This document shows positions 4,084-53,055 of a stretch of DNA of 64,000 nucleotides, piece after piece; position 1 is the first letter of the stretch; the number at the start of each line of letters is the position of its first letter. The position numbers were made by a program, and so were the translations under genes. The notes beneath the pieces are model-generated. The model was not told the DNA's origin, made no database searches, and saw nothing but the letters and a program-made list of their open reading frames with translations. The stretch covers positions 558,358-622,357 of the forward strand of contig KV748220.1 in assembly GCA_001692895.1 (NCBI GenBank), given 5' to 3'. This DNA comes from Cenococcum geophilum 1.58 (taxonomy: Eukaryota > Ascomycota > Dothideomycetes > Gloniales > Gloniaceae).

Positions 4084-4638
4084 TGATAAGCTCCGTACTA
4101 CTTAGCTATATAAACTAAAAGGTAAGTAAGTGACTAGCTTAGTGCCAGGCACGGCTGTATGGAACAATATATATAGGCGAGGTGGCTTGGTTACCTAACA
4201 ATGCATCCCTACTAATGGCGACTGTCCCTAGGCGCAATAGTAGTAGATATAAACTCGGTGGACCTATACCTCGGGAGCATATGTGTATAAATATATTAGA
4301 CCTCTAACAGCTACAGCGCGGCGCCTAAAGAGGCTAGCCTTACGCTTTAATCGTAGGCACTAGCGTCTTTAGTTACGGTATTAACCTAACCAAGCTAAGG
4401 CTTAGCTGCGTAACCGGCTCCTTTAGTTATACGATTAGTAGGCTATTTCTAAGTTAGCCTAGGGTATAAATGAGGTTTAAACCTATAAGGCCCTAGGTAT
4501 TAAGCTAGTTACTATATAAGGTAATAAGCTTTGTACTACTTAGCTATATAAACCAAAAGGTAAGTAAGTAACTGGCTTAATGCTAGGCACGGCTATGCGG
4601 AACAATATATATAAGCGAGGTAGCTTAGTTACCTAACC
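4084..4638. mobile_element. Small terminal-direct-repeat element (TRIM-like LTR relic)
   Basis: Two direct repeats of 117 bp (4084-4200 and 4522-4638) flank about 320 bp without coding signal. The first copy begins TG and ends CA, as an LTR does. The copies differ mainly by C/T and G/A changes. This matches a terminal-repeat retrotransposon in miniature, a non-coding LTR relative, lying inside the Gypsy fossil. A plain segmental duplication is the alternative. Confidence 0.5.
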
Positions 4639-6200: not shown

Positions 6201-6661
6201 TGCCTCTAAACCGAAGCTTATAGAATGCTATATTACAAAGATACTAAGCTAAAGAGAAGGAAAAGGGGTTATTAGGACCGAAGTAAATAAATATATAAGG
6301 GCAGCCGCTAAGGCGCTAGTAATAGGCGAGCCAATTATAGGTTAGTAGAATATGGTAGAATTTAGCAGGTGGCGTGCCATAGCGCTATCACAAGTGCTTA
6401 AATTAAATTACTTAAAGGGATAAGCCTACTTAGCTTATAAGCAGTCTATATACCACTACTATACTAATTATAGGCTAGTAGTCTTCCGGGAGGGTTCCGG
6501 TTAGGTCCCTAGTTAGATATATTAATATATTCCTCTAGTATTTCTAGCTTAAGGGAAGATTTTAAAGTTACCTTTAGCGCTTAATTTTTTAATTAGCTTA
6601 GGTAGGACTAAAGCTTAAAGGGGTTCCAGTTACTTCCTAGTAATATTATAACCGTTATAAA
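6201..6661. other. RIP-decayed stretch between two retroelements
   Basis: AT-rich sequence with no gene or domain that I can read. It contains the GCAGAATTT-type motif near 6350 and joins the Gypsy fossil to the first terminal repeat of the Ngaro-like element. Confidence 0.5.
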
Positions 6662-6664
6662 GGA

Positions 6665-6820
6665 TATCTATCTATCGCAGTCACGTAAGGGGATATTCAA
6701 TTTTTATATAATTGGGAGGCGTAGGGCTATAAGGTCGCTCTAGGGCTAGTTCTTAGTAGTTTTGCTAGTTTCTAGCACTTAAATCTGCTAAGGATTTGCC
6801 CTAAAGCGGCTAGATNTCCC
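6665..6820 (-). repeat. Terminal repeat B2 of the Ngaro-like element
   Basis: About 156 bp, nearly the same as 7087-7242. It begins TATCTATCTATCGCAGTCAC and ends in ...GCGGCTAGAT. A cluster of ambiguous bases follows at 6816-6870. Confidence 0.8.
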
Positions 6821-6976
6821 TANCNGNAAGCCTATAGCTNCAAGACTATNTAACTATAGTAGTNNCANTAAGGCTAGNTCTTAGTGGTTTTGCTAGTTCC
6901 TAGCACCTACTAAAGAATTGCCTTAAAGCGCTATCTATATATAATGTATACTAAGTATAAGGGATAGCGGGTAGGG

Positions 6977-7093
6977 AAAGCAAATTAGCTATATAGTAAC
7001 TGCGTTTAATATTTACGAATATTATAGGAGGTCTTAGCATTATGCGTTGCTAAGGTAGATACTGCCAAGTAATATATAGACGCTAGTATCTAT
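6977..7093 (-). repeat. Repeat A2 of the Ngaro-like element
   Basis: About 117 bp matching 11377-11494, with most differences being C/T or G/A. Its end overlaps the start of the adjacent repeat B by a few bases (TATCTAT). Confidence 0.8.
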
Positions 7094-7242
7094 CTATCGC
7101 AGTCACATAAGGGGATATTTAATTTTTATATAATTAGGAGGCGTAGGGCTATAAGGTCGCTCTAGGGCTAGTTCTTAGTAGTTTTACTAGTTCCTAGCAC
7201 TTAAATCTGCTAAGGATTTGCCTTAAAGCGGCCAGATGTCCC
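7087..7242 (-). repeat. Repeat B1 of the Ngaro-like element
   Basis: Partner of 6665-6820. On the minus strand it lies directly after the recombinase region and before A2, as expected for split direct repeats. Confidence 0.8.
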
Positions 7243-7275
7243 CAAGCAAAGCTCCTACGCCCAACAAGACATTAC

Positions 7276-7424
7276 CTCATTCTGCTATATTCTGCTATAT
7301 TATTATATTCTACTAAATTCTGCCACCTTATCGCATTCTGCCAAATTCTGCTATATTATCGCATTCTGCCAAATTCTGCTATATTGTCGTATTCTGCTAT
7401 ATTCTGCCATATTCTACCAACCCT
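7276..7424. repeat. Degenerate tandem array of ATTCTGCTA/ATTCTGCCAA units
   Basis: Roughly ten copies of ATTCTGC(C/T)A(A/T) variants, some spaced by TTATCGC. This is the reverse complement of the motif at 151-196. Confidence 0.75.
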
Positions 7425-10400
7425 AAGTTATAAGCCAACTAATTAGGATTTTCTATACCCGGCATAGAAAATTGCTATTAGCTTACTTACCACTAGCGCC
7501 TTAGCGGCGCTCTTAATATCTTAACTTGCTACCTAGTAATCCTTACGCTAAGAGTGGTACACTACGCTAAAAGTAAGAGTTAAGGCAACGGAGATTAGTG
7601 GTTTTAGTCCTAATATATAGGCGAAAGGCTTTTAATAACTACCGGCCTAGCTACTAAATTTGCTAATATAAATACCCTAAATCTTTAGCGAACTAGGTAG
7701 CGCCCTAGCGGAAGGAGTAGTTTAACTACTTAGGTTAATTCTAGCAGCTACTAAATAAGAGGAAAGATCTTATAAACCCCTAGAGAGGTAAAGGGTTTAC
7801 TATTAAGACTAAATAAGGGAGAGTTAAGGGGTTAAGGGTCCCTATTAAACAGCTTTGTTATAGTAGCAACTAAGCATAATAGGCCGCCTACCGCCGCGAT
7901 GGTAATGTTAACGCCCTAGTATTACTTATCGGCTTTACTCCATTTAAGGCGGAATATTATCCCACTAGGCGTAAAGGTGATATTATATTAGGTGGCCTTT
8001 TTTGCTAGGAAAGTTATTCGGTTCTTAAGCTCCGCCATAGTATATATAATCTCGCCTATCTATAGAAATCCAGTAAATGCAAGGGTAAATGCGGCATTAG
8101 TGTTAATATCCAGTAGTAATAGGCCGTGTGTTACTACCTAGGCTAAAATATCTCTAGTAATAGGTTGCTTGTCCTTTTTTACTAAGGGAGAAATAGTGGT
8201 TACTTTAGTAAGTAATTGGTATACTATAGGATCCTTAAATGCTATAATTAAGATACCGTAATCTATATAGCGCGAGCGAATTACGGAGATGTAGGCTTAT
8301 AAGGTTTCGGCCTTAAGCCTACCTATTTATGGCTAGGAGGTACTAAATACGCGGTAGGTAATCTATTCGCCTAGTTTACGCGGCTTAGCTAGGTAGGGGG
8401 AGACTCCTTTAAGTGCGCAGTATAACTCCTAGCTGTTAACTGCTAAGGAATAGTTCCTATGGGTTACTAGCGTAAGGCCGTTCTAGAGAAGAAGCGCGTA
8501 GAGGTTAAATAGCGCGTTAATATTATCTTTAAAGTTTATAGGCGGTTATAAGTAGTCTATTAGGTTTACGGCACCTATTAAAAACTTATTAGCTTTAGTA
8601 GTAATAAATTAAGGGCCTAGTGTGGGTAGAACTAATAGATAGCTGCGGCCTGGAATTAAGATAGTATATTAGCTAAGCTATTTAAATCACCTAGAATCTA
8701 CTTTGCGGATATTATAATATCATAAGCTATAGCAGCAAGCATGATCTTATAAAGTGATTCGTTTACTATACTACGGATAACGGTCTTCTTAATACCCTAG
8801 TAAACCACTATGCTATTAGTGTAAATAGATAGCGCGCTATACTGTTAGTTGGTAGACTATAAATTAAATACGTAAGCAATAGCATGCATCTCTTTTGGAT
8901 TAATATAGTCTACTCGTTAACTAGGCTTAGGTAATATGTTAAACGCCTAAGATTAAGGGAGATTAGCTGTATACCACTACTAGTTATCCTTATATTTAAG
9001 TTCCTTAAAAAAGTAAAAGCCGCTAAACCTAAACTAGGTAAAGGCGTTAGTAAAGAAATAAATACGGGCACGCTTAACGTTGTTAAAGAATAATACCCTA
9101 TTACTTATAGTAAGTAGGTTAAGCCAGATATATAAGTTACTTCGCAACTTGGTGCTAAATCGTCTAGGTTTATACTTATTTACTAAAGTCTCCGGCTAAG
9201 TAGTAATAAAGATCTAAAGGGATCTAGAGTAAGATTAACTAAGTTTAATTACGTAGGCGCACTATATAAGGTAGCCCGTAAGCTACTAGGCTTAAAGGAA
9301 CAATAATAAGCCGTATTAAAGTGCGGTAGTGACTTTCTTAATAGCACGTAATTGTTTCTATAGTAATAATCGCGTTTATATTTATATAGTGTTAATAGTA
9401 TATCCTAGAACTTTAATAATAGTTCCTGCTATATCTTTAGAGTTATTTTAAGGGATACCTAGGGAGTTAATAACAGAGATATAAGTCTAGGTAATAGCCG
9501 CTAAGTTATTCGGGTTGGTAAGGATAAAGATAAAGTCATTTAGGTAGTATTCCACCTCGTAAGGTAGTTATAAATAGAGTATCCAGTATAGGCCTTCCGC
9601 GAAGAGGTTAAATATAAGCGGCGCAGTTTAAAGACTAAAGAATAGGCAGCATTTTTAGTAGGTAACACCTTCCTAGGAGAAGCCTATTAATATTCTTGCC
9701 CTATAAGATAGGGGGACTATATAGAACGCGTCTTTAATATCTCTTTTAAGCAGTAGATATCTACAACCTATAGAAATAACGTGGGCTTAAATAGCGGTAA
9801 CTATAATATATACTAGTGTTCTATATTCTTCTAGGATTGCGTTATTAACTAAAGATACTAGTAGAAAGGAGAGATCGTAAATTTAGCGGTATCCTCTATC
9901 TGATTTTAGCACTAGGCTAAGAGGTAAGACTATAATAGGCCCTATCGCGATTCTAATATATTCTTTTTTAAGGTCTAATATTATCTTCTTAAAGATAAGG
10001 TTGGCGTTATCCTAAAAGGAGTTATAGTTTATATAAGATCTCGGAGTAGGGATAAATTCAGCTCCTATCTCACAGCTATAGGTTAGGATACCTACTAAGA
10101 TAGCTAGTAGATTACCTAGGTAGTTAGATAAAAGGGAGTACTACGCTAAGATCCTTAGGGGCGATAGAGAGTAGTAGAGAGCCTTCGCCTCTATAAAGGT
10201 AGGGAATAATAGTAACGTATTAGGCCTAGGCCCTAGGCGTATAATTAAAGTTAGTGTTATTATTAGGCTAGACCCTACTTTATAAGGTTCGCTTTACTAT
10301 TCCTAGGCGCAAGCTTTAGATAATACAGTATAATCTTTACTACACTTTAAGCACTTATGCGGGTATTTATAAGCTATATTATCGCAGCCTCTGCTATTAA

Positions 10401-11376
10401 ACTTATGGTAGGTATAGGAGGTATCCAACCTAGGTCTCTTTAAGGCAGCAAAGCCAATAGCACTAGATATTGTAAGGTATAGCGCTATATACTAGGCTGG
10501 CATTTACTAATTAGCGGGCTCTAGTTAGCCATTAGTTATTATAAAGGTATAGTAGTTAAGTGCTAAATTAAGTATACAACCTACCTAGATATACTAGGTT
10601 AATAAGGTATAAATTATATTTATCTAGAGAAGTATACTAGTAATAAGGTCTAGCGGGCATATATAAAGGGTGCCAGTAATAACCACGTAGTTAGTAAAAC
10701 CTTTAAACTAGACGCCTTTATCTATAAATAGCTTCCTATCTACCTTTACCTTCCTTATAACTAGAGTACNATTNTNAATCNNTNTCTTNTTNGNGATNTT
10801 AATTTAAGCGGTATANACTTAAAGANNGGCGAGGTTTACTANATTAAAGGTACCCTTAAAAATGTCTAGGTAATCCCTTTTTATAACGCAAGGAAGGTGG
10901 AGTTTAAGTAACTTTATACTAGGAGGGAGAGGCTTACTAAGAACATTAGTTATAGTAGCTATTATAATGGCCTATAAGGCCGAAGCGGCTAAGCCTAACT
11001 ATAATTAAGCTATTTAAGCTAGGTGGTATTTATACTAGTGGGCCTCCTCCGCTAGGTGGGCTTCGCGCTCTTCCTTATACTTCTAAATCTCCCTTTTATC
11101 TTAGGCTTATTCCCTTTACTCTTTAGCAATTTCGCGCTCTTCTATGGCAGTGGCGCGTATATTAGCGTCGGACGGCATTATAGGACTAATAGAGGAGGGT
11201 GTAGCGGTTATAGACGATGGTGTAGTTAAGGTAGGTCGTCTAGGTGGGTTTACTTATTGGGATTATACACGCGTATAAATCTCCCAGTTGGTTATAAGCG
11301 GTAATAGCTTTATAAAATAATTCTTAAACGAATGGATAATAAATATATAATAAATATTAATAAGTTTAGCGATATT

Positions 11377-11494
11377 GAAAGCGAATTAGCCACGTAGTGA
11401 CTGCGTTTAATATTCGCGAATATTGCAGGAGGTCTCAGCATTGTGCGTTGCTGAGGTAGATGCTGCCAAGTAATATATAGACGCTAGTATCTAT
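11377..11494 (-). repeat. Repeat A1 of the Ngaro-like element
   Basis: Upstream (minus-strand 5') copy of repeat A. It keeps more CpG and GC than the copy at 6977-7093, so the two copies decayed unequally. Confidence 0.8.
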
Positions 11495-11759
11495 ATTTTT
11501 TTTAGCGATAACTATAGGTATATAAGAGTTTTTTAAGCTCCTAGTATATCTAGGTATTAGGGCTTATTTAGCCGTTTTACTTAAAGGTTTATATTATTAC
11601 AATCTATTACTATTAGAGGGACCTTTCTGCCTTAATGTAATGGCTTCTATAAGGTATCTATAGAGTTTCTATTTAGGTTATTATAAAGTTTTTAAAGGGG
11701 GAATAGTAGATATAAATAAAATATATAAATAAATAATCTAGTTTTTAAGCCAGCTGCCC

Positions 11760-21626: not shown

Positions 21627-23224
21627 ATGGCGAAAAACTACAAGGCCATGAAAGAGGCTTTCGTGTCGAATCACACCGGGAGCTCTGTCTCGGAAATTAA
21701 TTATGTTACTCTCGTCGCTCCTGTATTACACACCTTCAAGCATGAGAAGATTCCTTTACTAATTACCTTGCTAATAGTCCACGGTGCTGTTGTGGTCAGT
21801 TCTTCAATCGCGACTACGCCTGTTCACTCCTTACAACCCGTCAGCAATTTTGATCGACTTCCTGCTAAACTGTGCTGCAATACTATTCGCTACGACCATA
21901 TACTCTTCGGCGCCAGCACTCCTTAATCTGCTTCTCCTGCTCCCTGCGCTATCGGTGTACCTCACATCCACATCACCGCCGAAGCAAACAAAGCCCCGAC
22001 CGCCAACGCAATCCAATGCCTCGTCCCAATCCACGCAACCTCCTTTCCCTGTCAAACCATTTGTGACGAACTATAGAGGGACTATGATGGTGGTGACTTG
22101 CGTAGCTATACTGGCGGTCGATTTTCGGATCTTCCCTCGACGGTATGCAAAGGTGGAAAACTGGGGTACCTCGCTGATGGACATGGGAGTGGGCTCCTTC
22201 GTCTTCTCTGCCGGAGTAGTCTCTGCTCGGTCAATTTGGAAGGGCCAGTTAAGCAAGAAGTCGACGCCATTGTTCAGAAGACTGGCAGCTTCTGTAAAGC
22301 ATTCTCTACCTCTTTTGGTTTTGGGCGTCATCCGGCTCTATAGCGTCAAAGGTCTAGATTACGCCGAACATGTTACTGAATACGGAGTGCATTGGAACTT
22401 CTTCTTTACTCTAGGCTTTTTACCGCCATTTGTCGCTATATTCCAATCAGCATTCAGCATTATCCCCTCATATGCAATACTATCATGTCTGCTAGGCATT
22501 GCGTATGAAGCTGCTTTGGATTTCACCGACCTGAAGGCATTTATTATCACAGCACCACGCACTAACCTTCTGTCACAAAATCGTGAGGGCATTTTCTCAT
22601 TTTTTGGTTATCTAGCAATTTTTCTAGCTGGACAAGCCGCAGGCATGTACGTGCTACCCCGCCAGCAACAAATTGCAAGGGATGCCACGAGGCGAGAGAT
22701 TCTTCAGAAATCTACGCTGGCCCGCTTAGTCATGTGGACATTTATTTGGAGTTCCTTCTTCTTCTTTTCTACAAGTTATTATGGCCTAGGCCTTGGCCAT
22801 GTGGACATTTATTTGGAGTTCCTTCTTCTTCTTTTCTACAAGTTATTATGGCCTAGGCCTTGCCGTCTCACGCCGTCTAGCGAACTTACCGTACTTCCTC
22901 TGGGTGACCGCTTTCAACTGCGGACAAATTACTCTCTTCTGCGCGATTGAGTCGCTCTGTTTTCCAGACATCTATAAAACTGGAGATATCGAGACGGAAA
23001 AGAGAAAGTGTAAAGAAGCTACAAGCAGAGTCCTCCATGCCTTCAATCGCAATGGGCTTGCCATTTTCTTATTGGCAAACCTGTTAACCGGTTTGGTTAA
23101 TTTAACCTTGCCGACGTTGCACATGCGGCAGATGCAGTCGATGGGGGTTTTAGTGACGTATATCTCTATAGTATGCGGAGTTGCCCTGCTGTTAGATAGG
23201 CAGAACATTTCCATAAAGCTGTAG
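21627..23224 (+). CDS. GWT1: GPI-anchor inositol acyltransferase Gwt1, frame interrupted by a tandem duplication
   Basis: Acylates the inositol of glucosaminyl-phosphatidylinositol in the ER, an early step of GPI-anchor synthesis needed for cell-wall mannoproteins. Exons 21627-21722 and 21778-23224, with a 55-nt intron (branch ACTAAT). The start [18 protein letters not shown] and the string of hydrophobic segments are those of fungal Gwt1. At 22731-22862 a 65-bp segment is present twice with GC between (period 67), so the frame shifts: upstream it reads to [11 protein letters not shown]...YYGLGL and only the second copy continues into [19 protein letters not shown]. Counting one copy, the protein would be 491 residues, normal for the family. 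As the gene is normally essential, an assembly error or very recent lesion is likely. No GT-AG pair removes exactly one copy. Confidence 0.9.
22731..22862 (+). repeat. 65-bp exact direct repeat inside GWT1, period 67
   Basis: Copies at 22731-22795 and 22798-22862, starting CATGTGGACATTTATTTGG, separated by the two bases GC. The period of 67 is one more than a multiple of three and shifts the frame. Confidence 0.95.
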
Positions 23225-23450: not shown

Positions 23451-24284
23451 ATGTCTACGCCAACAGCGAAACGGCGCCGCCTAGACAACGCGACGCGCAC
23501 TTTACACAAACCGTTCAAATCGCCCTTCCGTACGCCATTGAAGCCGCAAATCGCAGCAGAAGACTCATCCAAAACCGCAAACACGCCTAGTACCGTAGAT
23601 CACAGCCATGTAGTGCCCGTACAATCAACAGCCACCCCCACCAAACCGCTCCCCACCCGCCCCGCCGTATCCACACCCTCCACTCGCGCCAAAGCTTCCA
23701 CAGCGAGCACCAAGCCCTCCACAACAAGCGCCCTCATTTCCCTCCGCACAGACATCCAGACCCTCACCCAAGCGTACCGCCTAGCGACCTCCACCACAGA
23801 CGCCGATCTGGAAGTGCTGATCGAGCGCTGGCGCGCCGCCAGCCGCGCTGCGGCCGAGGAGCTGTTCGCCAGCACGCGAGATAGGGTCAATAGGATGGGC
23901 GGGGTGGGAGCATGGCGAGAGAGGGAGAAGGAGCAGAGGGAGTGGAGGACAAAGTGGGAGAAAGAAGAGATGGAGGCGGAGCGAGGAGGTAGGGGCGAGG
24001 CGGAAGGGGAAGAAGAGGGAGAGGAGAGAAGGGAGAAGAGTGGCGAAAGAGAGTACGAGCGGGGTCGTGATAAGGATGAGCAGGAGGAGAAAGTGGAGGA
24101 GGGGAATGATGATGATGTGAGTGGTACAGGACTTTGGAGTTTGGGGGGGCGGGAAAGATGGGTCTTGTGTCTAGAAGTGGCTAATGTTTAGTAGTCGTTC
24201 ACGATGGACATGATGCTTAGGACACTTAACATCGATATTGACGTTATCGGGTACGATAGGCAAGGCCAGCGATGGGTTGGATGA
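23451..24284 (+). CDS. SFR1: Swi5-dependent recombination mediator, Sfr1/Mei5-like
   Basis: With Swi5, this family stimulates Rad51/Dmc1 strand exchange. Exons 23451-24116 and 24195-24284; the 78-nt intron has donor GTGAGT and acceptor TTTAGTAG; 251 residues. The N-terminus MSTPTAKRRRLDNATRTLHK followed by a short KPFKSPFRTPL block is a conserved box of fungal Sfr1/Dds20. The middle (LEVLIERWRAASRAAAEEL, then RDRVNRMGGVGAWRERE) is the conserved helix. An acidic low-complexity coiled coil (about residues 165-220) follows. The second exon supplies the conserved end FTMDMMLRTLNID and GYDRQGQRWVG. The later of two AGs was used because the earlier one leaves a stop. Confidence 0.88.
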
Positions 24285-25032: not shown

Positions 25033-27571
25033 TCAATCAGCGGGAGGAGATGGTAGATCCGATGGCTCAGCTTGTATAAAAATGTCACCTTTGGAGAAGT
25101 AAGCACTGGTAGGGTTCAAGGAAGGGATCTGGCACACTTACTGAGGGGCTTATCAGGGTAGACCGCCGCCCGAAAACGGGCCAAAGCCACGTGAAGCAGA
25201 TGTGAATGTTGCTCAAGTCCGGAGACAGGTACAACGTTCGAGAGTACTCTACACGAGTAACAGGTGAGCTTACCGAGCACTCCTACACGGCCATTATACA
25301 CAACTTCACAGTGTGTACACTTGTAACAGCCTTTGTGCCATATTTTTTTGTCGAGGCGATAACAATCGTCCTCAACCGGCTTATGACAGGCATCACAACT
25401 ATCTGCGCTCTTGCTAAGAAGTTCTAGCAAGGGTATCGATGGTACACACAGCTTAGAATCCTTGGCAGTCGTAAGGGCCTTCAGAAACACTGTGAGAGCT
25501 TTGGATACATGATTATCTTCCAGTTTTAGGGAAGTTTGGAGCCCGATCCGCACCAGTAGTTTCATGTAATGTGCAAGGTCTGTTACAACTGATGGCAATT
25601 CTTGGGTGACTTCAAGGCGAGTAACACCTATCTTTGCTGACTTTACGCAAATGTGAAAAAGATTTACGACCTTTTTGCACAAAAGCTTACTCTCTTGCAA
25701 TGTAGAGGGGCCTTTGGAGGTAAATTAGAGATACATTCATCATTTGAGATGGTAGCTTACCTTTCCAATCCACTTGAGGCGTCACCAGCCGGCTTATTGC
25801 ATCGATCGCCCAGAAAATGGTATCCACCTTTGCAATAAAGCGACTAGTAATAAGCATCATCTCGCTATAATCGCCGTCGCTAGTATGTAGTAACATGCTA
25901 GATATATCGGTTGCGCACAGCCCCTCAAACGCCGAGCAGGCTCCCCAAATCCGAACCCCACTCTCCTCTACGCGTGCCATTAACTCCTGCATTCCCGCAT
26001 AGTTAAAGTCAGGTCCAATCGGGTTTGGAAAGGGCCGCTTCGTGAAATCTATCTGGCAACTACTCAAACTTTTCCCCGCGATCCTAACATTCCAATATTT
26101 GTGGATCATATCTACGGGAGCATTAGTCCATCTTAATGGCACTGTAAGACAAGATACTAACAGCATTCAGGATGCCAATATTGATTTGCTCCATCGCGGA
26201 AATTCTCCACGAACTTCTTCAAAATCAGTGTTTCACATCCATCACAGACCTGGGCCCATTGCACCGCATAATGGTAAAGACAGTAAGCGGCACCGTCGTG
26301 TTCGTAATAGTTGTCGTAGGCTCCAAACGCCCTGTCGCAGTCAGAGCATCCAAAATGCTCGACGTGATATTTCCGGTCAAGTGCTGAGATGTAATTGTCA
26401 CGGAGTGCCTTTCCACATTTGAAGCACAGCATATCGTGCCGGCGAAAGTAGTCTGTCTCGCAAAGAGCAATTGGCATGCTAGAGCCTCCATCTTCCAAGG
26501 GCCAGAACTTGCTAGCTATTATTTCCCCGCAATCCTATGATAACAATTAGCCTGAATACAACATCGTTGGTGCAGGGTCATTTTTACTGCACAAGTGAGA
26601 CACTCTAAGTGGAAAGCGTTCCCCAAATTACACACAAATTGACGACTAAGCTTTTTTCCGCATTTGGCGCAAGGTGTGTTCTTGGAGGTAGCAATGACCG
26701 GTTCCCGCCGCATTGGAAGGGACGGTTTCCACATAAGCCCAACTTGTTTGTCTTTTACGGAGAGGAATGGCGACTTGACAATGGCTACTGGCTTTTGTTC
26801 CACTATAACAGAAGTTCGTTCGGCAGGGCTTACTAACTTCGGCCGCGTTAAAGAGGAGGATGGGGCATCTTGTTGGATTTGATCGGTGATAGATCCCAAG
26901 GGAGGAAGTGTCGGAACCAGCGTTAAAGTGGGTGGCGGATCGTCACACCGGCCCTGCCCGGGGCCAGATCCGCTTTTTCCTTCCCAACTAGTCCATAAGG
27001 GAGAAGAAGTCGGCTCTAGCAGTAATGAAGGTGATATATATGGATTGGGCTCAACATTGTGTTTCAAAGTGGGGTCCTCTTTTCCTCTCTGTTTGTTTAT
27101 TCTTCGGATAATATCCATGACTCTCTTTGCTGACCCTGAACTTCCACCGTGGTGTCCTTGTTGCCGCTCGTCATATACATCAGCAGATTTGCGACTCTTT
27201 TGCAGCGCGTTCGGCCGCTTACCGCGGCCTTGCTGGGGAGGAGAATTATAGCTGTTAAAGCTAGGTGGGTACTGAGAACGGTAAGACTGAGGTATTAGAG
27301 AGAACCGGCCGTTGGTAGCGCCCGATTGCTCTTTCTTCGTTTCCATTGCATGCTTCGAGGCGTCACCTCTGCCGGCGTCTCCTAACACTGGTGCTTTCGT
27401 GGAGAGAGGATATTGGTCTACTTGGCTAGCTGAAGAATTTTCTTTCAGAGGAAAAAATTCGCCCATGTTCTGGTCTGGTGGCTGTGCAAAATGCTGTGAC
27501 GACTGCGAATGGAGTGATTTATCGGGTAATATTGGTGTAGATAATTGTGACTTTCCCTGGATCTGAGGCAT
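25033..27571 (-). CDS. LIM-domain protein of the Lrg1 type without a RhoGAP domain
   Basis: Exons (minus): 27571-26588, 26534-26162, 26111-25761, 25711-25142, 25088-25033; introns of 49-53 nt; 777 residues from the first in-frame ATG. Residues 1-300 are disordered and Pro/Ser/Gln-rich. LIM zinc fingers follow: CAKCGKKLSRQFVC...HLECLTCADC, then CFKCGKALRDNYISALDRKY...C, a third partial CDGCETLILKKFV...HPECY, and a last one CDACHKPVEDDCYRLDKKIW...C. Between them lies the helical stretch typical of fungal Lrg1 RhoGAPs (HKYWNVRIAGKSLSS; LCKKVVNLFHICVK). In Lrg1 a RhoGAP domain follows the last LIM domain; here the protein ends SDIFIQAEPSDLPSPPAD and stops. It may act as an adaptor at polarity or septum sites (inference). 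The frame is open upstream of the ATG right to the kinase stop codon. Confidence 0.85.
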
Positions 27572-27757
27572 AATCTCTGGAGGGTTAGATAACGAGCTGT
27601 TATCACCTCGAACAATCCCCTTCTGATCTAGCTGTTCGGCAGATTGCTGTTTGCTCGGCAAAACTAAGCTTGGATTGTTCTCAGAATCGTGATGTTTAAG
27701 TTGTAGTTGTTTGGGCAGCGGCTGTATAGGTTGGGATACAGATGTGTCTTCATAGTC

Positions 27758-29355
27758 CTACGGATTATCAGAGGAAGACCTTGGCGGCATGCCTACAGAT
27801 GTACCAACCAAAGGCTCAGGAGAACTTTCTGAAGTAATAGCGCTCTCAAGCTGTACATTATCCATGGGCTCCTGAAAGCTTACTGAGTCTAAAGGCTGAG
27901 CAAGGTCAATCACCGAGGCCCATGAATGCACGCTTTCTGCGGACTCCAGATCGTCTATACAACAGAGTCCGGAAAATATATATTTCGTCTCCGGGTCCGA
28001 GTTAACCTCCACAATGGCCTCAAGAAGCATATGCGCAGTCCAGCGAGCTTTTTGATCTTCTTGCATCAGATTGGAGATCCAGGATCGCGGGGCGTTGTCC
28101 GAATTCAACCCTTTAGAGCCGAGAATCGATAACCAGGAGGAAACGCCAGAAGGATTAAGATAGTAGTGAGACAACACCGAACCAGGCCCCTCAAGATGGG
28201 TATAAAGCCTTGATACAGATTCTTCCTTCAAAACGGTCCAAATCTCTAGAAAGACGCAGCCAAGGGACCACATATCTGTAGATGATCGTTAGTTAGAGGC
28301 AATCACATGAAGTGTATCGACTTACCGGAGGAGGAATTTCTCGGCAGAAATTTGGCTACCTCTGGTGCACAGTATCTAAGGGTTCGAATGGTATCTCCCG
28401 ATGTCGTGCTCTTTCCGACCTCGGTCCAGTCAAAAGATATGCCAAAGTCCGTCAGAAAAACGGCATTTGTCTTTACTAAAACATTTTGGGGCTTGATGTC
28501 CTTGTGCCGAACGCAGTTTTCATGAAGATAACATAACGCTGAAGTAAGGCAACCAAAAAAGGTGCGAAGAAACGACCGCCGTTCTGAAACTCGTTCCACG
28601 CTACCAATACTCTCAACCTCAAGATACTCCTTCAAATTGCAATCAGCCACGGGTGACATGATTATACTGACAAATCTGGGATCTGTATAACTGCCAATGA
28701 ATTGTACGATATGGCCGTGCTTCAACTTTTTTAGATGTGCCAGTTCGTGTTCGAATTCTTTTAACACTTTCCTATCCTTCTTAAATGTACGAGTTCTAGG
28801 AATCAACTTCCTAGCGTACTCCTTATAACTGACTGTGCTGACAACTTTGTCAACATACCCGTATCCCCCCTGCCCAAGCTCTGCAACTTTTATGAAAGGA
28901 ACATCATCGGAGTGCGAGAAATGCTTATGTTGTCCAGTCTCTCGTTCGAGGTCTAAAGACTTGGTCAGAACTAGATGCTGGGTTCGAAGGAATAGGTCCA
29001 TAGCGGAGGGACTGAGCGAACTGGGTAAAGTCTTATGCTCGAAAGGGAACCAGTAATCCGTGATGCCTTGGGCGAGGAAAATGTCGATGGTAGGCAGCTG
29101 GTCGATGAGACGTAGAATTGAATAAATTCTGGGTATTCGACTCCATTGTTCCCTTCCATTGAATCGAAGTACATCGGAAATGCCACGAAGATGGGTTTCT
29201 GAGAGTTGTTCTGACAAACTGCGTTGTGTTGGGTTGGAACCATTGCCTGGGAACCAAGCAAACATGGCAGTCTCGATACCCTCCGAGGAAGCTGTACTTT
29301 GAGGGACACTGCTGTCACCCTGCCGTAAGGGAGACGATTGTTGAGCAGACTTCAT
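27758..29355 (-). CDS. Ser/Thr protein kinase, fungal-specific family
   Basis: Exons (minus) 29355-28326 and 28275-27758, with a 50-nt intron (GTAAGT donor, CTAAC branch); 515 residues. Residues about 75-140 form the helical leader seen in fungal kinases of this kind (RIYSILRLIDQL; FLAQGITDYWFPF). The kinase core has the glycine loop ELGQGGYGYV (about 159-168), Lys183 in YARKLI, the catalytic loop HKDIKPQN (284-291), DFG (303-305) and APE (330-332), so it should be active. The second exon gives DMWSLGCVFLE and the C-lobe, ending after SGLCCID with a Ser/Pro-rich tail. The TAG at 27758-27760 is followed in the same frame by 62 open codons leading into the LIM protein. Substrate unknown. Confidence 0.88.
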
Positions 29356-29710: not shown

Positions 29711-30682
29711 AGGAGTTGTTCGGTTGCAAATGGGCTCTAGATCAGAATCTGTTCGATCCGTGCGCCCTTTAGTATCGCCCGTTTTGTAATTAGTGGCGGC
29801 TACTATCGTGGCTCAGTCGAATCTGTGATCGAGTCGATCGTTCCGTAAGCCTCCAGAAGAGGTTCCAGATTTAACTTCGCATAATCTATGATTGACTTTG
29901 GTGAGCGATTCGAGTAACCCCCTCTGCCACCAGGCCTCTATCGCAACTCCCTGCTTTGGTGTGGTAGTGGAGCCTCCCCCTCAATCAACGCCCTCCCCTC
30001 GATCGACGTTTTCTAACCTTCGCCAGCCCCCCGCACAAGCCGCAGAAGAGTTACCGCGACGCCCGCGACGCCTACAGGGCATAGGATAAGGCTGGCAAAT
30101 GCGAGAGCGGCATCGCGATCGGGGTGTGTAGAGTCGCCATATCACAAGAAGTCGTCACTTTGGCGTGTATGCGAGAGCTCTAGAATCAATATGGAATAGA
30201 ACGGGAGCTGGAGGTTGCATATCCCTTCGTGTGGCAAAATGCGATTTTTGATTGGGGCGTATTTAGCCTTCCTGCTCAGCCTCGGTTGGAAGGATGCTTT
30301 GAAAGGTCACCATAAAAAGGTCATCAAATATTTTTTTTTTAAGAAAGCTGGGCAGGAAGTCGTAATACATAACGTCATGGTTATACGTTCCTGGCACTTC
30401 TCTATTGACTACCTGCTAGTTATATAGGAAAATCCTCCCTTAAAGCCTCAAATGCAAGAAATCGTTGCCACACGAAGGGATTGAAGCGGTGCCAAGAACC
30501 TCATTTCAACTACTGTATACGGTATAGCTTGCAAATTTGACGCGCTTGCCGATGCGGAGGAGCTTCAGATTCAAAAGTCGTCAGATCTACCAAACAACAG
30601 CCTCATATTCAGATATGAGCTCCAGATCGGTTATATTATGGAGCCTTCATATGCACTATGAAGCTGCAACCGAACAACTCCT
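29711..30682. repeat. Possible worn TIR element, 18-bp inverted ends
   Basis: AGGAGTTGTTCGGTTGCA at 29711-29728 and its exact reverse complement at 30665-30682. No transposase is readable between them and no target duplication is clear. Confidence 0.35.
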
Positions 30683-39975: not shown

Positions 39976-40282
39976 ACGGCTCGTGCACGCGACCGGCTCG
40001 TGCACGGTTTTTCCTCACCAAAATATACCAAAATACACCTTTTTCTACTACCTATAACTTTATAACCTTGAAATAAATTTTTATAAAAATTAAAATATGG
40101 TTAATCAAATACTAGGGTTATAAAGGTGACCCTAGTCATAACTAATTTAAAATTTAAAAATTGCTAATATATTAATTTAGTGGTAAATAATTAGCAAAAG
40201 CTATTATAAGTTATTATATTATTAGTAAGAAGTCTTAAAGCTATGAGTGTATATAATAGAGTGTATATAAAGTTTTTTTTTA
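39976..40282. other. AT-rich stretch at the gene-island edge
   Basis: Begins with a direct repeat of CGGCTCGTGCACG (39979 and 39995), then turns AT-rich. No gene recognised. Confidence 0.45.
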
Positions 40283-41350
40283 GGCTAATTGTTGCCGTTT
40301 GCAGCAAATTGCCGTAAACTATACGGTTGCGGCGGTCGTATATAGCTGTTAGCAATTTGTGTAAACCGCGCGTTTTATAACAAATTTACAGCATCTAATA
40401 GCAAATTGCGGTAAAAAGCTTAACTACTAAACTAATACTAGCTTTTTGCTACCCTATAAATAAATAGTGCGCAAACTATATATATTATAAAAACTATACA
40501 AATTATAATTATATAATTATATTATATAATAACCAAATTATTATATATTCTTATAGATTACTATAATATACTTTTAAATATAGAGATATTTACTTAAGTA
40601 AGGGGGAAGCCTCTTATAGAGGCTCTAAATTATTAATTATTAGTATTCCTATTAGCGACTTAGTCAATCGAGGCACGAGCACGGCAAGAGGGATGCGCAA
40701 GCCTATACGATTGGATTGTCTATAAACGAGGATCCAAAGCTAGAGAAAGGAAAGGAGAAGAAGAGTAGCACCGCTCGATGTTTTATACGATCTTCACGTC
40801 ATATAACCGCAATCTGCGGCAATCTGTGGCAATTTGCTAGTACTATAATATTACCCCCCCCTTTATAAAAGCCTACCCTTAGGCTTTATAGTCCGTATTA
40901 CACCTATAGGGTGTTCTTATCCTTATATTCTTCTAGTAGCTTATTATCTTTACTATGCTAAGCACTTTATTTACTTATCTAGGTACTTTAGGGGTTCTAG
41001 TTTATTAGGGAAACGGCTATAAAATTCTTAAAGCTTATAGGGACTGCTAATAAAGTTCTATATAGGGTACTAGGTAGGATCTAAGTTATAGCCTTTTTAA
41101 CTAATGTAGTACTTTAGCGTTCTCCTTACTAGTTTATAGGCTAGTATTTCTTTAATTTCCTATTTATTGTCGCTATTAACTTAAATTAGTAAGGGAGGTT
41201 TATTCTTTTATCCGGGTAATAGGTTATCTATAGCTTTCTATAGCTTATCCGGTAAGAAAATAAAGTAAACCTTTATTAAATCTAGGAGCTTTACTTTATA
41301 TAAGTTGCTTATTTTCTTAAGGACCTTATATAGTCTTACTATCTAATTAT
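40283..41350 (-). mobile_element. 3' fragment of the first Gypsy family with an LTR-like end
   Basis: The part 40870-41350 matches 190-620 in diverged form. On the minus strand it is followed by a purine-rich tract (near 40850-40862) and then by a candidate LTR (about 40283-40848) with repeated GCAAATTGC/GCAATCTGC words. The fragment is cut short where the LTR of another element begins at 41359. Old and broken. Confidence 0.55.
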
Positions 41351-41358
41351 AAGGTGGC

Positions 41359-41576
41359 TTTATAGATAGGGGGCTATAAGGCACAATTGTAGGAATAGGA
41401 TAGATTAGTAAGAGAGATAAATCCTTAAGAAGGTAAGGCCTCTAGGATTGTAGAGACTATATACTACGGGTACGTGCCTCTAGTATATAACCGGCGACCA
41501 TCTAAGGGGCGTCTGGGGGTTATCCTAAGGGCAACCTAAGGTGTCCGCAATAATATCCCTTATATTGCCCCCCCCT
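41359..41576 (-). repeat. LTR of Gypsy-B, RIP-decayed copy
   Basis: Aligns along its length with 11907-12109. Differences are mostly C-to-T or G-to-A, with the other copy keeping more GC. Confidence 0.75.
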
Positions 41577-44500
41577 TTTTACAGCTAGCCCCTAATCGCT
41601 ATTACCTTACAATAGGGAGATTATAAAGGCTCGTCCCAGAAGGGGTTTAGAGAGATATTAATATGCCGCTGTATATTATCTATCTATTTAACCCCTACTT
41701 TAAACTCTTAAAAAACCTTAATAAGAAAAATATATAACTGGAGAAAAGACGCGAGGATTGCTAGGAGATCTATTGGAAGCCTACTGGATATATACTAGTA
41801 GCTACTTAGGCTAATATAAGGATTTTTATACAACTCTACTTCTAAGCCTTTATACTGGTCTGTAATTAATTATAAGTATTATAGGTAATTTAGTGTTCTA
41901 GTATAGTTCTGTAAAAAAATTTGGTATAAAATTTAATATATAGAGCTTTAGCTTGCCGTTGTCTTTAACTGTTAAGATATAATCTATAATCGTTTTATAT
42001 AATCCTCTATATTACTAACACATTATTCCTATATCTACCCTTAGGCTATTAAATACGGTTAAGGTATTAATTACTTAATTAAGGAGACTTATCTCCTAAG
42101 ATTTAGTATATATGCTTTCAAATCTAATAGTTCTGTGCCGTATATTTAGCTTAGCTCTACTACCCAGTAAACAGGAGGGATACTTTATAATAGCACCTAT
42201 AGCTATTATACGATTATTAAGAACGTCTATAATGTTATTCTTTAATACTATAGTATCGTTTTAGGTATAATTTAACCTATATATGTCTTTAATTGACGTC
42301 TTAATTGCCTTTCCCTAGCCGCATTATTAGTTTTTATAAGGAAGTAATAGCTAGATAGCTTATACGCGTGTTTCCTTTCTTCTAAGTGGCGCTATTATAA
42401 CATAGTTATATTAGTAAGGTTGCGGCTATTTACTAAAAGGGTATTAGAAGGTATAGTATAAAGATACTTTACTTATTAAGCTTAATCCTTTTCCTTAATA
42501 CCTTACTTTCTATTACTAATCTTCGTCCAATTTTAGGCGTATCTTTAATATATTATTAAGATTTTCTTCTTTTCTATTAATAATTTAATATACCTCTTTG
42601 TTCTTCTACTAGCTACTCTTTTAAGTAGATTCTATAGTATATTCTAGCCCTACCTCCGCTAACTTGCAACTAGTGCTAGTCCTACCTAAATAATTTTGCC
42701 TATACGTCTTTAAAAGACTAGAAATCTAATAATAGGATTTTAAAGGCTTATAATAAGACGTATTGCGTTAAATCTAATACCTTTAGTCCTTATAATTAAT
42801 ACATGCGTACTAAGAACGGCAGTTATATTAAGGTAAGCTTTTCTATTCTTAATAGATTTCTATTACTAACTTTAAGCTTTAATAGCCTAGGCCTAAGTAG
42901 CAACGTTCTTTTAATGTTTTTAACTACTATATTGCCCGGGCTCTCTCTTATTCTAATATAAATGCTAAATAACTTAGTCGAATTTAAGACTATACTATAG
43001 CTATCTATACCGCCTATAATTCTTAGTAAGCTAGCTAGTAACGCCTAATATAAGAGTAAGGTTAGTATACTAAGGATAGGGTAAGGAATAGGGTTAATAA
43101 GAAAAAGGTTACTATCTACTATAGAAAGGAGTTCGCGTATATACGTTAAGTTTTAAAAGAGTATAATATAATATATTACTAGGTAGGTTACCCTTTAGGT
43201 ATCTAGCGGATAGGTAACTAATAGTTGCTATAGTAAGGTCTGGGTAGTTCTGGACTAGACTAACTAGCTAATATCTCTATTTATTCCGGGCTTAAGCATG
43301 TCTTTATTAACTATAAGCTAACGCCCTAAGAGCTTTATTAGTATTAGTTTAGACCTAATATTAGTGTTAAGCGTTTAAGAATCCCTACCCCTACTAAGGG
43401 GTCTAGATCCTATTCTTATTAGCTATTACTTAGTAGCCTAATAGATACTAATCTTGCTCCTAAGGATAAGGTATAGTGGCTTTTTAGGTTAGGCATTTGG
43501 AATTTATTCTTATATATAGTAGCAATTAAGGACCTTAATTAGGTGCTTAGAAAGGCCTTGTAAGGCTTTTAGAGAGGGCTTAGAAGCCCTAAAAACAATA
43601 TTCCTAATATAGATAAATAAATAAAAATGCAATTCTAGTAAAATGCCCTATTAACTCTATACTATATATATAAAAAGGCTAAGGACCCGTTCTGCTTTAG
43701 GCTATAGCCCTAATCCTTATAGTTTCCAGAGCTTGTCCATTCTATATCTAATTTAACCTATTTACTCTTTTTACAAGCTTTCTTTATAGGTCGCAATAAT
43801 ACTATAATATTAGAGCGCTTTCTATAATTTATAAATTATAGACCTTAGTCCCCATATTCTTTTAGAATATCTTTATAATAATTAAAGTAATCCTCTAGTT
43901 CCTATATAGAGTCTTTAGCGGGCTAGCCTAGCTATTTAACTTTATATTAAAGCTTATTCTTAATAGACTTATGGCATAGCATAGCTTTAACCTTATACTA
44001 CTCGCCCACTACCTTAAGGTATTTAATTAGGCCTAGACGGAAGTTCTTTTTTAGTAATAGTCTATACTATAGCTCTAGTAGGTTTAGGCTATAAATAGGG
44101 GTAGCTAGAGACGGTAGGCTAGCTTACGAATTTATTCCTTAACTTAGAAGGGACCTAGGTATTTTATATTAAGCTTCTTTAATAGTTAACAGGTCTTAAT
44201 ATTTGTTAAACGTAATAGAACCTCATCGCCTGCTCCGAAATGCTTATCCTAGTATTTCCGGTTATACTAGAGTCTTTACTACTTTTAGGCATCTTGCAGG
44301 CTCTACTTTATATACTTTTATTACTCCTCCTATTCCTAGAGGTATCCTTATACTCTCTAGTAGATATTCTTAAACTTTCTAGTAGGATCCTATAACTAAT
44401 TATACGGCCTTAGCTAGTAATTATTAAGTATACCATCAAACCCTAATAGTTAAATACTATAGGCAATCTGGATTAGTGCAAACTAATATAATAAATATTG

Positions 44501-47500
44501 CTTTAAATTATAAGCGTACTCTACATACAGAAGTAGCTTATACCAATTATCTTGCTAGTAGTTTAAATATATTTATAGGTAAGACTCTAGTTCCTAGTAC
44601 TGGCGTTCTATTTACCCGTCCGTTTATAAATAAAAAGCTATACTATAATAGTGGTCTATCTTTAAATGGAAGTATAGGTCTAACCAGTACTAGCTTATAA
44701 AGACGCTGCCCCTATTAGTAATAATAAAGTACGGCTAATCTACTTTAAGAAGGCATTTCTCCTTAATTAGATTGGCTAGCGCTTATACGTTAATTGTTTT
44801 ATTAACAGGAAGGTATTAAATATACTTTAAAACCCTATTAATAAGTAGAAGGACCGAATTATATATTCGTCCTTAGCTATCTTTAAATAGTAGGAGATCT
44901 ATAATAAAGTCTATAGCGTAATATTGCTATAGCTTACTAGCGGGGGGAACTAATTTAAGTAGACCCTATAGCTTGTGCCTATAGATCTTATATACTTAAC
45001 ATTTCTTATAATAGTTAATATACTCCTTTACTTCCTACTTAAGCTTTAGCTAATAGTATTTGCGCTAAAGTAATTCCACTATCTTAGCTTAACTATAGTA
45101 GCCGCCTAAAGGATTATTATAATTCTTTATAAGAATCTTCTATCGTAGATTTGCTTCTTATAGCACCTAAACCTTACCACCTTTATATAATAGGCCCACT
45201 AGGTCTAGTTCCTAATAGTAGCGCCTAGCAGCTTCCTTTCTATTATATTTCTAGTCTGCTTTTGCATTAAAGGTAGTATAGAAAGCGTCCCTCCGTTACA
45301 CCTTATAGATAAGATCTATTAACCTTTTAGATAGTTCCTAAGTAAAAGCTATTTTATCTTATACTACTCCAAGTATAAAACTAGATAGTGCTATAGATTT
45401 TATAACTCTTTAATACGTGTATATTAGGAAGGCCGCTATAAGGTTAAAGTCCTTTAGTTATTATAGGGCTCCGAGTTCCGATTGCTCTATAGCTTTACTA
45501 TTAGTTTAAGGGGATAGCTTAGTAATTAAAGATAGTATATTACTATATTTTAAGAATATATTAGGGACGTCCTATCTAGGTATATTTAGGCCCTTATTAG
45601 CTATGGACCGGGTACTAGCTAGAATATTAATAAAAGCTAATAGGGTTTACACCGCCTAAGACTTAATACGTAGAGCTGTGGGTGCTTAAGTATTCTATAC
45701 CTAGAGCTTATTCTATAATATAGGAAGTAAGATATCTATTATCTATTTTCCTTCTCCCATTTTAAAGCCTTTAGTATAGTCTAGCCGTTATAACGGTTTA
45801 TTAATAGGGTTACTTTCCCCTAGCTTAAATTTAATCTTAAAATTAAATTATATAAGCTCCTTTATAGTTATAAAGTAGCGTAAATTATAATAATCTAAGA
45901 GTACACAAGTGGTATAGCTCGCGTGCTTAAGGTAATATCGCTACTATTTAAAGTAGTTAACTATAGCTAGTAATTCCTTATCGTAGGTATAATACCTAAC
46001 TTTAGGCCCCTAGAATTTTCTATTATAGAATACTATTAGTCTTTAGTAGAGCTAGGTAGCGTCCGGATACCTATTAGGTTATAGTAGGATACTAATAAAG
46101 GCAAAATTTAATATATTAGTAATTATTATTAATAGCTAATTTAGGCTAAAATGCCGTAGTAATAAAGCTTTTATAAACTTTACGCGAAGTTCCTAAAAGG
46201 CCTTTTAAACCTTTCTGGGCTATAACTATAGTTTATACTATTTAGTTAGTCCTTTTTTTAGTTTTCTTCCTTATAACCTTTAAGCTTTTTACTCCTTAGG
46301 TTAGGTCCTAGAAAGCTTCCATAATATAGTTAAATAGGTATTAGGCAACGTCTAAGTAGTTATAAATAAAGCGCTTATAGAAATTGGCAAAGCCTAAAAA
46401 TACTTAAATATCCCAGTAGCTTTCTAGCTCTAGCCACTTTTAGATTATCTATACCCGTACTAGGTCTATAACTACGCCTATAAGTATTATAATATAACTT
46501 AAGAACTTAACCTACTTAGTATTAAAGATATACTTTAACGCCTTGGTATAAAGGCCCTAATTATCTAAATATTCTAGTACTTTGCGGACGTGTTACTTAT
46601 GCTAATTCTTATTTTTTTTAAGTAGATTAGGATATTATCTAAATAGATAATATATATACAGTTAACTAGTCCCCCTAAGGCTCTATAAATATATAATTGG
46701 AATATTATAGGCGTATTGGCTAGCCTAAAAGGCATTACTAGATACTTAAAGTAGCCGTATTAGGTCTTAAAAGCGGTCTTCTACTTATCCCCTTCTTTAA
46801 TACGGAGCCTATAATAGGCATCTTATAGATTTAGCTTCGTAAAGATCTTCGCCCTAAATAGTCGATCTAGTATTTCACTAACTAGTAGTAATAGGTAACG
46901 GTTCTTAATTATAATCTTATTAAGACCGTAATAGTCTATATATAGCCTTACAGTTCTATCTAGTTTTAAAATAAAGAGGATTATCGCGCCTATTAGCGAC
47001 TTACTAGGCCGGATCCACCCCTTTTCCAGTAAACTATTAAGGTACTTCTATAGGATCTTAAGCTCTTTACGAGAGAGGTTATAGATAGAAAGGTTTAGTG
47101 GTTGTTTACTTTTTTTTAGATTAATTATATAATCGTACTCCGAGTTTTATAGTAGGACTTTAGCTCTTCTACCCAAAAATACCCTTAGTAAGTCCCTTAG
47201 GCCTACTAGAATATTTAATAAATTAGGGTCGCGTTCGTTCTCTATATTATTATTAGGTAGGTCTTAGAGCTCCCTTAAAATACTCACGGGCAGCGTTATA
47301 CGCTATAGTGGTTGTTTATATATAGTTGCTACTATATATTGCACCGTTTTATATAATAGCCAGTAGAGGGTAGGGAATTCTTTAACGTAGCGTTTAAGGT
47401 GCTGTAGTATACTCTCCGCGTATTATTTAAGCTAAAGTAACCTATAACGGTTAAAGTATCTTATAAAATCTTTAAGATTACCACCTCCCTATAATATCTC

Positions 47501-47567
47501 TATAACCTATCCGGTAGTTCCCTATAAGATCTCCGTTATAGAAGGGCTATTACCTATACTAGTGTTA

Positions 47568-47702
47568 TGGCTAAGCCCAACCCACTCAGCCATACAAACC
47601 ACCAAAAAGGTAGCAGCAGTGTCTCGCGACTGGACGGGCTGCCGGTTGGAATGTCTTATAAGCTCTCCAGCCCATACGTGACGTATGGGTAGCGCAAGGC
47701 AT
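47568..47702. mobile_element. GC-normal 135-bp insert inside the Gypsy-B fossil, likely MITE
   Basis: A patch of balanced composition stands in AT-rich surroundings. Its ends are GTTATGGC and, reversed, GTTATGCC, a short inverted repeat. It was probably inserted after RIP had acted. No target duplication is certain. Confidence 0.45.
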
Positions 47703-49570
47703 AACAACTAGGCTTTATACCTATCTTGCTATTAAATAGAGGTTAAATCCGATACTCCTTTGGGTATAAAGTGTATACTATTTCGCCTAGGGCTACATTC
47801 TCTAGAATATCCTTTAGGCTTATTAGTAATATACGCCCTTCTAAATCTTTATTATTCTACTATTTAAAAGCTCCAGTCTTAAAGCGTATCTTAAGATCTA
47901 CTTCTATAAGCTAAGGGTATCTAAGGATAAGGTTATAACCTATAAAGTTAACCGCCTAGAAGGGTTGCGGGCTAACTACCTTAGTACGGTTATATATATT
48001 GGCCACTAACACTATAAGCTTATAGGCACTATATAGTTTAATTAATACTTATCTAGGAAGCCTATAATAGGTTTCTACTACTTTAGTAATAGGATAAGTT
48101 TATACTCTTTTACTAAATTATATTATATAAGATTAATTTCGGCGCCACTGTTATACAGCGCTTAGAACTAACGTACCTCGCCTATAAGAAGTACCGTTTC
48201 TAGCTTAACAGTAATATAGAAAGTCTCTCCTTCCGTATCTTGCCCTAGTTATAGCTAGAAGAGGTCCGTAACTAGGGAATTTTTTAATAGATTATTAGTG
48301 CGGTTATCGCCCTACCTACTTTTCTAATAGGATTTACCTTTAGAGTTTTCTCTTAACTTTTTAGAGTGTTTTTATAAAGGTACTAGACGGGTATTAGGTT
48401 AGCCCTAGAAATCTTTCCCGTTACTTATAGCCCCTAACTTTAACCCTTTTAAAGTTCTCTTTAAAAACGGCTTCTTTAAAGGTTAGGTCTGCCCTATATT
48501 ACTACTAAAGTGCCTATACTTTTAGTGACCCCCTAGCTTTTTACTAGAAGAGGTCTAGTTCCTTACTATATTTTTAGCGTTTAGAACCGCTTATTTAAAA
48601 TCTATATATATAGTAATCTATAATAGAGCTCCTACGCGCTTTATTTCGTTATAAATTACTAGCTTAATTCTAGCCTAGATAAACCCGATCTTCTTCTTCT
48701 TATAGATACTACTGCTCTTATTTTTAAAGGGCTTTAGATTTATCTATTAAGCACGAGTTTCTATAAAGTTTATAAACTAGCGGAAGTTATAGCGGTTAAG
48801 CTATATCCTATTCCAGAATAGCTCTATATTATCGTATTATATAATATACGGATCTTAAGTCTATTTCTTTAGGAAGGTTTACAGCTATAGCTATATAGTA
48901 ATTTGCTCTTTATTAAGCTAATTCAATATAATCTAGTTTAGCGATTAGTCTTTAATCTTACTAATAATCTAGTATATACGCTTTTTAGTATTATCTTATA
49001 TTATTAGTATCTTAAAAAAGTTATCTACTTTATAAACCCAATTATCTAGCTGCTAGGCGTTAGGTCTATAGCGGAGTTCTAAACTATTAGAGGCCTTAGC
49101 CAGTTAGTTTATTACGGACCTTATATCGGCAGTAGTACGACTACTAAGGATAGACATAAACGGGTTAGTTAAGATAGTATAGGAGGCGCTAGAACCGATC
49201 AAGCTATAGGATAAGGGGTAGCCGAGTTACGTGGCTAGTTACGTTATAAGTTCGGAACGTGGGAATATAGGAACGTGGAAACGCGATATACTAACGTACT
49301 AACGTACTAATATACTAAACCCTTTACTATAGGGAGGAGTTATATATTTAAGGACATACGGTCTCTACAGATAGTTTCTCTTCTTTATAGTAAATTTTAG
49401 AATATAATTAGAGTTAATCTATTAAGCAACTACTCCACTAGTTATTATTACGTTATTAACTTCTTATTTACCTATATACCTAGCCCATTAATAAGTTTAC
49501 CATAGTTCTTACTACAAGGCTTTGTTATATATTTACTACTAAGGTTATAGTATTAATAAAGTTAAATAAC

Positions 49571-52867: not shown

Positions 52868-53055
52868 GAAAATCTTTTAACTTAAGAACACTATCTTCCA
52901 AATTAATTTTAAACTTATTTTTATTATTACTAGAGAAATCTAGTAGCTAGTAATTATTAGATAGATTTATTTAAATTAAAATATATTCTAAATACGTTAT
53001 AAATACGTTATAACTAGTTACCTATAATTATTGGTTCTATTTTGGAGCTAGGGGG

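Follow-up and report, generated by a model that had tools for sequence, protein, structure and literature searches.

A putative spliced fusion of a protein kinase and an Lrg1-like LIM region in Cenococcum geophilum, with an apparent stop codon as its candidate intron end

Introduction

A single stop codon between two coding halves that share one reading frame raises the question of whether the halves are two genes or one. Such a layout lies in a 64,000-nucleotide stretch of Cenococcum geophilum 1.58 DNA (hereafter, the window), for which the original prediction placed a kinase and a LIM protein in one frame across a single TAG, with 62 open codons between them. This layout was confirmed on the minus strand. 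Here, the TAG, the origin of the sequence on either side of it and the protein that the locus may encode are considered in turn.

Results

The kinase frame runs on the minus strand through two exons (29355-28326 and 28275-27758), encodes 515 amino acids and then reaches the TAG at 27760-27758. Exon 1 (29355-28326) holds the N-terminal region and the first part of the kinase domain, as judged by the Pfam Pkinase match and the kinase motifs, and is followed by a predicted intron of 50 nt at 28325-28276 (GTAAGT...CTAACTAAC...CTACAG). Past the TAG, the frame is that of the LIM gene. No stop interrupts it for 62 codons up to an ATG at 27571-27569 and onward to 26588, and 412 codons are open beyond the TAG if nothing is spliced. 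The gap between the kinase frame and this ATG is 186 bp, and both alternative frames of these 62 codons are broken by stops. A run of 62 codons would be open by chance with a probability of approximately 0.043, the same-frame requirement not yet counted. The codon-bias score of the 62 codons is 0.072, compared with a coding mean of 0.056, an intergenic mean of 0.018 and an intergenic 95% point of 0.081, codon bias being weak here.

Read from 27757, the LIM frame comprises 839 codons in five exons, its stop codon ending at 25033, with four predicted introns (26587-26535, 26161-26112, 25760-25712 and 25141-25089). Joining the two halves yields a model of seven exons and 1338 residues, in agreement with the fusion of about 1300 residues proposed earlier. 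All of its exons are open, and no further stop is left after removal of the predicted introns. A Pfam scan (E up to 0.001) returned kinase models in the first half, LIM models in the second and none besides. Upstream of the gene, a copy of a dispersed repeat occupies 30675-29718 on the minus strand. At least 72 matching pieces were found genome-wide, the window copy counted (40 of 548 candidates scored), and the idea that this repeat is a promoter common to the kinases was rejected because it is dispersed in the genome.

Intron candidates were defined as in-frame GT-AG pairs of 40-160 nt that cross the TAG and leave the frame open. Seventeen were found, a count that carries no weight because 400 nearby codons average 10.9 such pairs each and 15.5% of them have 17 or more. 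The two introns quoted in the original prediction (27796-27722 and 27761-27669) do exist in frame, but they are 2 of these 17 and poor ones: one has no CTNAY, and the sole CTNAY of the other lies about 46 nt before its end. In four candidates, of 51, 99, 126 and 156 nt, the TAG itself supplies the final three bases, the intron ending at 27758.

The 51-nt candidate (27808-27758, phase 0; TTG/GTTGGT...CTGATAATCCGTAG/GAC, with slashes at the exon borders) has a CTGAT branch site 10 nt from the intron end, and with it exon 2 (28275-27809) would carry the remaining kinase domain and the tail. The five other predicted introns, located in both halves, are 49-53 nt long with the branch A of a CTNAY 11-13 nt from the end, and the 51-nt candidate is close to them in length, branch site and branch distance. 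Its donor, GTTGGT, is not optimal. The 126-nt alternative (27883-27758) uses the same branch site and acceptor with the donor GTAAGC, which is also that of the intron at 25760; an intron of this length is conceivable because the Lrg1-like gene of this genome has predicted introns of up to 110 nt (57, 71 and 110 nt).

A comparable case was found in the paralogous kinase L037, where a 57-nt phase-0 intron (TTG/GTGAGT...CTAATGTTACGTAG) lies within the kinase domain and has an in-frame TAG as its acceptor. Kinase homology runs directly across this intron on both sides; unlike the 51-nt candidate, it contains one more in-frame stop in addition to its acceptor. The TAG of the window gene is most likely the 3' splice site of the 51-nt (or 126-nt) intron, as far as splice signals can be read from DNA, and would serve as a true stop upon intron retention.

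The rarity of this configuration was assessed by counting TAG triplets that have a CTRAY at 7-15 nt and an in-frame GT 45-62 nt upstream with no in-frame stop between. Across 20 sequences from the same genome, donor and branch site were both present at 7 of 4430 TAG triplets, the window TAG included, and a GTNNGN donor in addition at 3 of 4430. Among 61 frames that run for 100 or more codons and end in TAG, the window frame alone showed the configuration. When in-frame candidates of this kind were allowed at any position in eight coding stretches, 68 of 5187 codons (1.3%) fell inside one, and none inside one with a GTNNG donor. These thresholds were fixed after the site had been seen, and the rarity is for that reason not given as an exact probability; the counts may be worth perhaps fifty to one, roughly, in support of a spliced TAG.

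The explanation that best accounts for the whole locus, and that we consider probable, is one seven-exon kinase-linker-LIM gene in which the TAG is an intron end and the added modules place the kinase. The fusion that had been among the earlier options is supported, but through an intron ending on the TAG, which had not been proposed. If the locus were instead two tandem genes, the kinase would stop at the TAG and the LIM gene would start at the ATG at 27571 under a promoter located within the 3' end of the kinase. An ATG is present, each half has plausible domains, and the length of the kinase tail falls inside the span seen in paralogues that lack a C-terminal Pfam domain, where 5 to 198 codons follow the kinase match (L030, L032, L033, L034 and the two of L035). 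However, such genes would be merely 186 bp apart in a common frame with 62 open codons (the value of 0.043 above, before a further one in three for the frame), and splice signals ending exactly on the TAG would be coincidence, which makes this arrangement unlikely.

A TAG can also arise by a single base change, and this one might be a nonsense mutation of recent date, or else reflect the strain or the assembly, in a former fusion that has no intron here and whose LIM half is dying or kept by a new start. The closest listed paralogue, L036, is itself broken by several stops. Against such a history, the window gene is free of further stops after the predicted introns are taken out, its splice signals would be left unexplained, and it bears no signature of repeat-induced point mutation, its TpA/ApT ratios being 0.74 and 0.85; two AT-rich blocks elsewhere in the window have ratios of 1.7-1.8, although the broken L036 is without the signature as well. 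That repeat-induced point mutation created the stop was rejected on the absence of this signature from the gene, and a recent nonsense change in general appears improbable. It is harder still to credit that read-through or some other intron, for example one of the two quoted earlier, joins the halves. Thirteen further in-frame GT-AG pairs do cross the TAG, but pairs of this kind are common, as the mean per codon indicates, and both quoted introns lack a branch site close to their 3' end. A TAG with GAC directly after it is not known as a context for read-through. The new stop and the read-through offered in the original prediction are therefore both weaker than a spliced fusion, and the single spliced gene is adopted below.

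The Pfam kinase match covers residues 156-429 of the first half, where GQGGYGYV, ARK, HKDIKPQN, DFG and APE occur in this order at residues 161, 181, 284, 303 and 330. The catalytic motif reads HKD where HRD is usual. The motif set of an active kinase (Gly loop, Lys, HxD, DFG and APE) is complete, and the protein is predicted to have kinase activity. Searches of the fungus's own genome covered 177.2 Mb in 162 contigs. The kinase search (E up to 1e-5) returned at least 89 matching pieces, two window pieces counted (84 of 151 candidates scored), and at least ten other genome pieces matched the window kinase with E of 5e-53 or better. Among the matches listed, L036 is the paralogue with the highest identities (50-55%); it too is without the signature of repeat-induced point mutation (TpA/ApT 0.75).

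Several of these paralogues carry additional modules. C2H2 zinc fingers precede the kinase in L030, WD40 repeats follow it in L031, and TPR stand before the kinase in L033 and after it in L037, while L032 and L034 have long tails without a further Pfam match. The presence of LIM domains downstream of a kinase is in keeping with this module-adding habit of the family. Among the matches listed (10 LIM pieces), every LIM piece outside the window is more than 100 kb away from any kinase-family piece. A search of solved structures with the kinase matched 2354 distinct sequences, the best at 2e-19 to MAP3K5, and was uninformative as a guide to the family.

Exon 3 (27757-26588) begins with a Pro/Gln/Ser-rich linker of 362 codons and ends with the first half of LIM1. 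Counted from the TAG, linker residues 96-233 (53%) or 67-228 (45%) match a gene at C64, which we take to be Kin4/KfsA-like by its sequence. At the DNA level, 27292-27075 matches this gene at 88% identity over 218 columns and ends just before the donor stop codon, which is not included; the flanks of the segment look unrelated to the C64 DNA. The donor gene has a kinase domain, and the copied segment is its end, that is, only the last part of its tail. The window and C64 were the only places among the matches listed when the 218-bp segment was searched as DNA. Over 71 codons, the two copies share 83% amino acid identity with dN of 0.10 and dS of 0.17, and their length differences are whole codons, so that both copies have stayed in frame. 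Close to its end, the donor tail has a phenylalanine where the window copy has isoleucine; by this change, the copied tail may have changed its job.

Own-genome searches found no source for linker residues 1-66 and 234-363. Shuffled sequences reached the score of linker residues 1-150 and 234-363 against the Kin4/KfsA-like tail in 100 and 97 of 500 cases, respectively, and of this likeness only the 218-bp segment counts. The idea that the linker continues the tails of the paralogues was discarded in the same way, on comparisons of linker residues 1-150 with the frame after the L036 kinase (43 of 300 shuffles), the kinase tail with that same frame (261 of 300), and the kinase tail plus 150 linker residues with L032 and L034 (64 and 108 of 300).

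LIM1 and LIM2 (26671-26271) are supported by Pfam, follow the generic zinc-ligand pattern and are split by the intron at 26587-26535. Exon 4 (26534-26162) encodes the remaining LIM1, LIM2 and the start of a LIM3-like stretch, which departs from the generic pattern; exon 5 (26111-25761) encodes the Lrg1-like region from this stretch towards the last LIM domain, and exon 6 (25711-25142) encodes the Lrg1-like region that includes this last domain (about 25397-25251), again with the generic pattern. Exon 7 (25088-25033) adds a short C-terminus and the stop. The closest comparison is an Lrg1-like gene at C67 (L029), with which the LIM half shares 46% amino acid identity over 443 codons at a dN of 0.54. 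No dS value was obtainable for this pair, which is taken as saturation.

Two of the four LIM-half introns have the same aligned place and phase as introns of L029, namely intron 3 (53 nt, 26587-26535) and intron 5 (49 nt, 25760-25712). One is close: intron 6 (53 nt, 25141-25089) has the phase of the L029 intron before the RhoGAP domain and lies within about four codons of it, the alignment being gapped there. Intron 4 (50 nt, 26161-26112) has no counterpart. These common positions indicate that the LIM half was probably copied from DNA and not from message. The LIM duplication looks older than the tail copy. L029 continues into a RhoGAP domain (PF00620, E 5.2e-16), whereas the window gene ends after its short last exon, and no RhoGAP domain was found in its protein by Pfam at E up to 0.001. 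The earlier label of Lrg1 suits the LIM half, although the RhoGAP domain, one of the features by which Lrg1 is recognised and present in L029, was not found there. For the 111 residues before LIM1 of L029, no match was found in linker residues 229-365 or by the genome-wide LIM-half search, and a reading of linker 229-365 as an Lrg1 N-terminus was dismissed, as 278 of 300 shuffles reached its score.

Discussion

The encoded protein is most likely a mosaic, judging from these sequence relationships, of a kinase from a paralogous family, a copied Kin4/KfsA-type tail and an Lrg1-like LIM part without RhoGAP. Animal LIM kinases, with N-terminal LIM domains and a PDZ domain between LIM and kinase, likewise combine kinase and LIM domains within one protein. 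The N-terminal position of their LIM domains is stated in part of a published account (PMC3019232). In the window protein, the LIM domains are C-terminal and Lrg1-like and no PDZ domain was found (Pfam, E up to 0.001), as the original prediction had expected in describing animal LIM kinases as differently built; the combination apparently arose independently of them.

Among fungal kinases, the Ffk kinases are described as having low similarity to yeast and animal kinases and as varying between species, and 3 of the 11 of A. nidulans are marked with ankyrin repeats (PMC3591445). Compared by description only, they and the window gene are both fungal kinases with added modules; the window gene has LIM domains, and the part of that report used here does not mention a LIM module. 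With Lrg1, the window protein shares the LIM domains and the sequence leading up to the RhoGAP border, but it gives no RhoGAP match and a kinase precedes its LIM half. With Kin4/KfsA, it shares the C-terminal coding segment copied from the C64 gene, whereas its kinase domain belongs to another family, judged against the C64 kinase (28% identity, E 1.5e-6). No fungal kinase-LIM protein or fusion was found among the papers listed from an open-licence library, as judged by titles and the starts of abstracts.

In the spliced message, the TAG would go unused as a stop, being the last three bases of a phase-0 intron, and the LIM domains and the copied tail could then position the kinase, or serve as a scaffold for it, at septa, at the tips of hyphae or at spindle poles. 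The yeast Kin4 C-terminal region is described as needed for localisation to the mother cortex and spindle poles (PMC3004881), and Kin4-related kinases of A. nidulans and F. graminearum as acting in septum formation (PMC3245316). For N. crassa Lrg1, the LIM domains are reported to be crucial for localising to tips and septal pores (PMC3914944). Both borrowed modules resemble parts that, in these relatives, localise septation proteins. The simplest mechanism would be that such sites (septa, tips or spindle poles) retain a lineage-specific kinase. The same report, as far as it is drawn on here, states that the RhoGAP domain too affected Lrg1 localisation in M. oryzae (PMC3914944), which weakens the idea because this domain is missing from the window protein. 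The exchange of phenylalanine for isoleucine in the copied tail is a second point against it. Such targeting, as well as the splicing and the kinase activity on which it would depend, is inferred by analogy with these relatives and from sequence.

If the intron were retained, a 515-residue kinase without linker, copied tail and LIM modules would be made. The TAG-ended intron could in that case act as a switch between this free kinase and a spliced form with borrowed modules for targeting to septum or cortex, a suggestion that we regard as rather doubtful. If true, evolution would here have rewired a lineage-specific kinase to the division site with modules from two septation-type genes.

The best reading of the locus is a new domain combination in a module-gathering kinase family, a gene mosaic and an annotation trap, and no new kind of system. 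Provided that the splicing is right, a new signalling protein was assembled from pieces related to three unlinked genes of a large fungal genome, and it offers an example, open to testing, of fusion supplying a kinase with localisation modules. Gene finding can be misled as well: where an in-frame intron has TAG at its end, the sequence has precisely the appearance of a stop codon, and the intron of L037 presents a comparable trap.

Paralogues of the kinase

In the locus whose kinase paralogue is followed by TPR, an intron of the paralogue at L037:3085-3141 lies within the kinase domain and has an in-frame TAG as its acceptor. Simple reading of the frame would take this TAG for a stop. The paralogue with the highest identities to the window kinase (L036:3050-4740, on contig C37) has its frame broken by several stops and frame changes and is probably a pseudogene. 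At L035:4468-7694 (contig C2), two kinase paralogues adjoin in opposite orientation, and one of them, the match of L016, contains two TAGs within the matched region.

Genomic surroundings of the gene

The stretch bearing the gene is flanked on either side by an AT-rich block (1-11500 and 40000-55500; GC, 0.33-0.34), and the TpA/ApT ratio of 1.7-1.8 in these blocks is a dinucleotide signature of the repeat-induced point mutation type. Upstream of the gene, positions 29718-30675 hold one copy of a dispersed repeat with at least 72 matching pieces, including that of the window (40 of 548 candidates were scored). Among the matches listed, most copies lacked a match to its central ~258 bp, which may be a nested insertion.

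Past the 3' end of the gene, a 246-codon open frame lies on the opposite, + strand (23451-24191); its sequence may resemble that of Sfr1/Mei5-type repair proteins. A 67-bp unit is duplicated in tandem at 22725-22858 with 97% identity.
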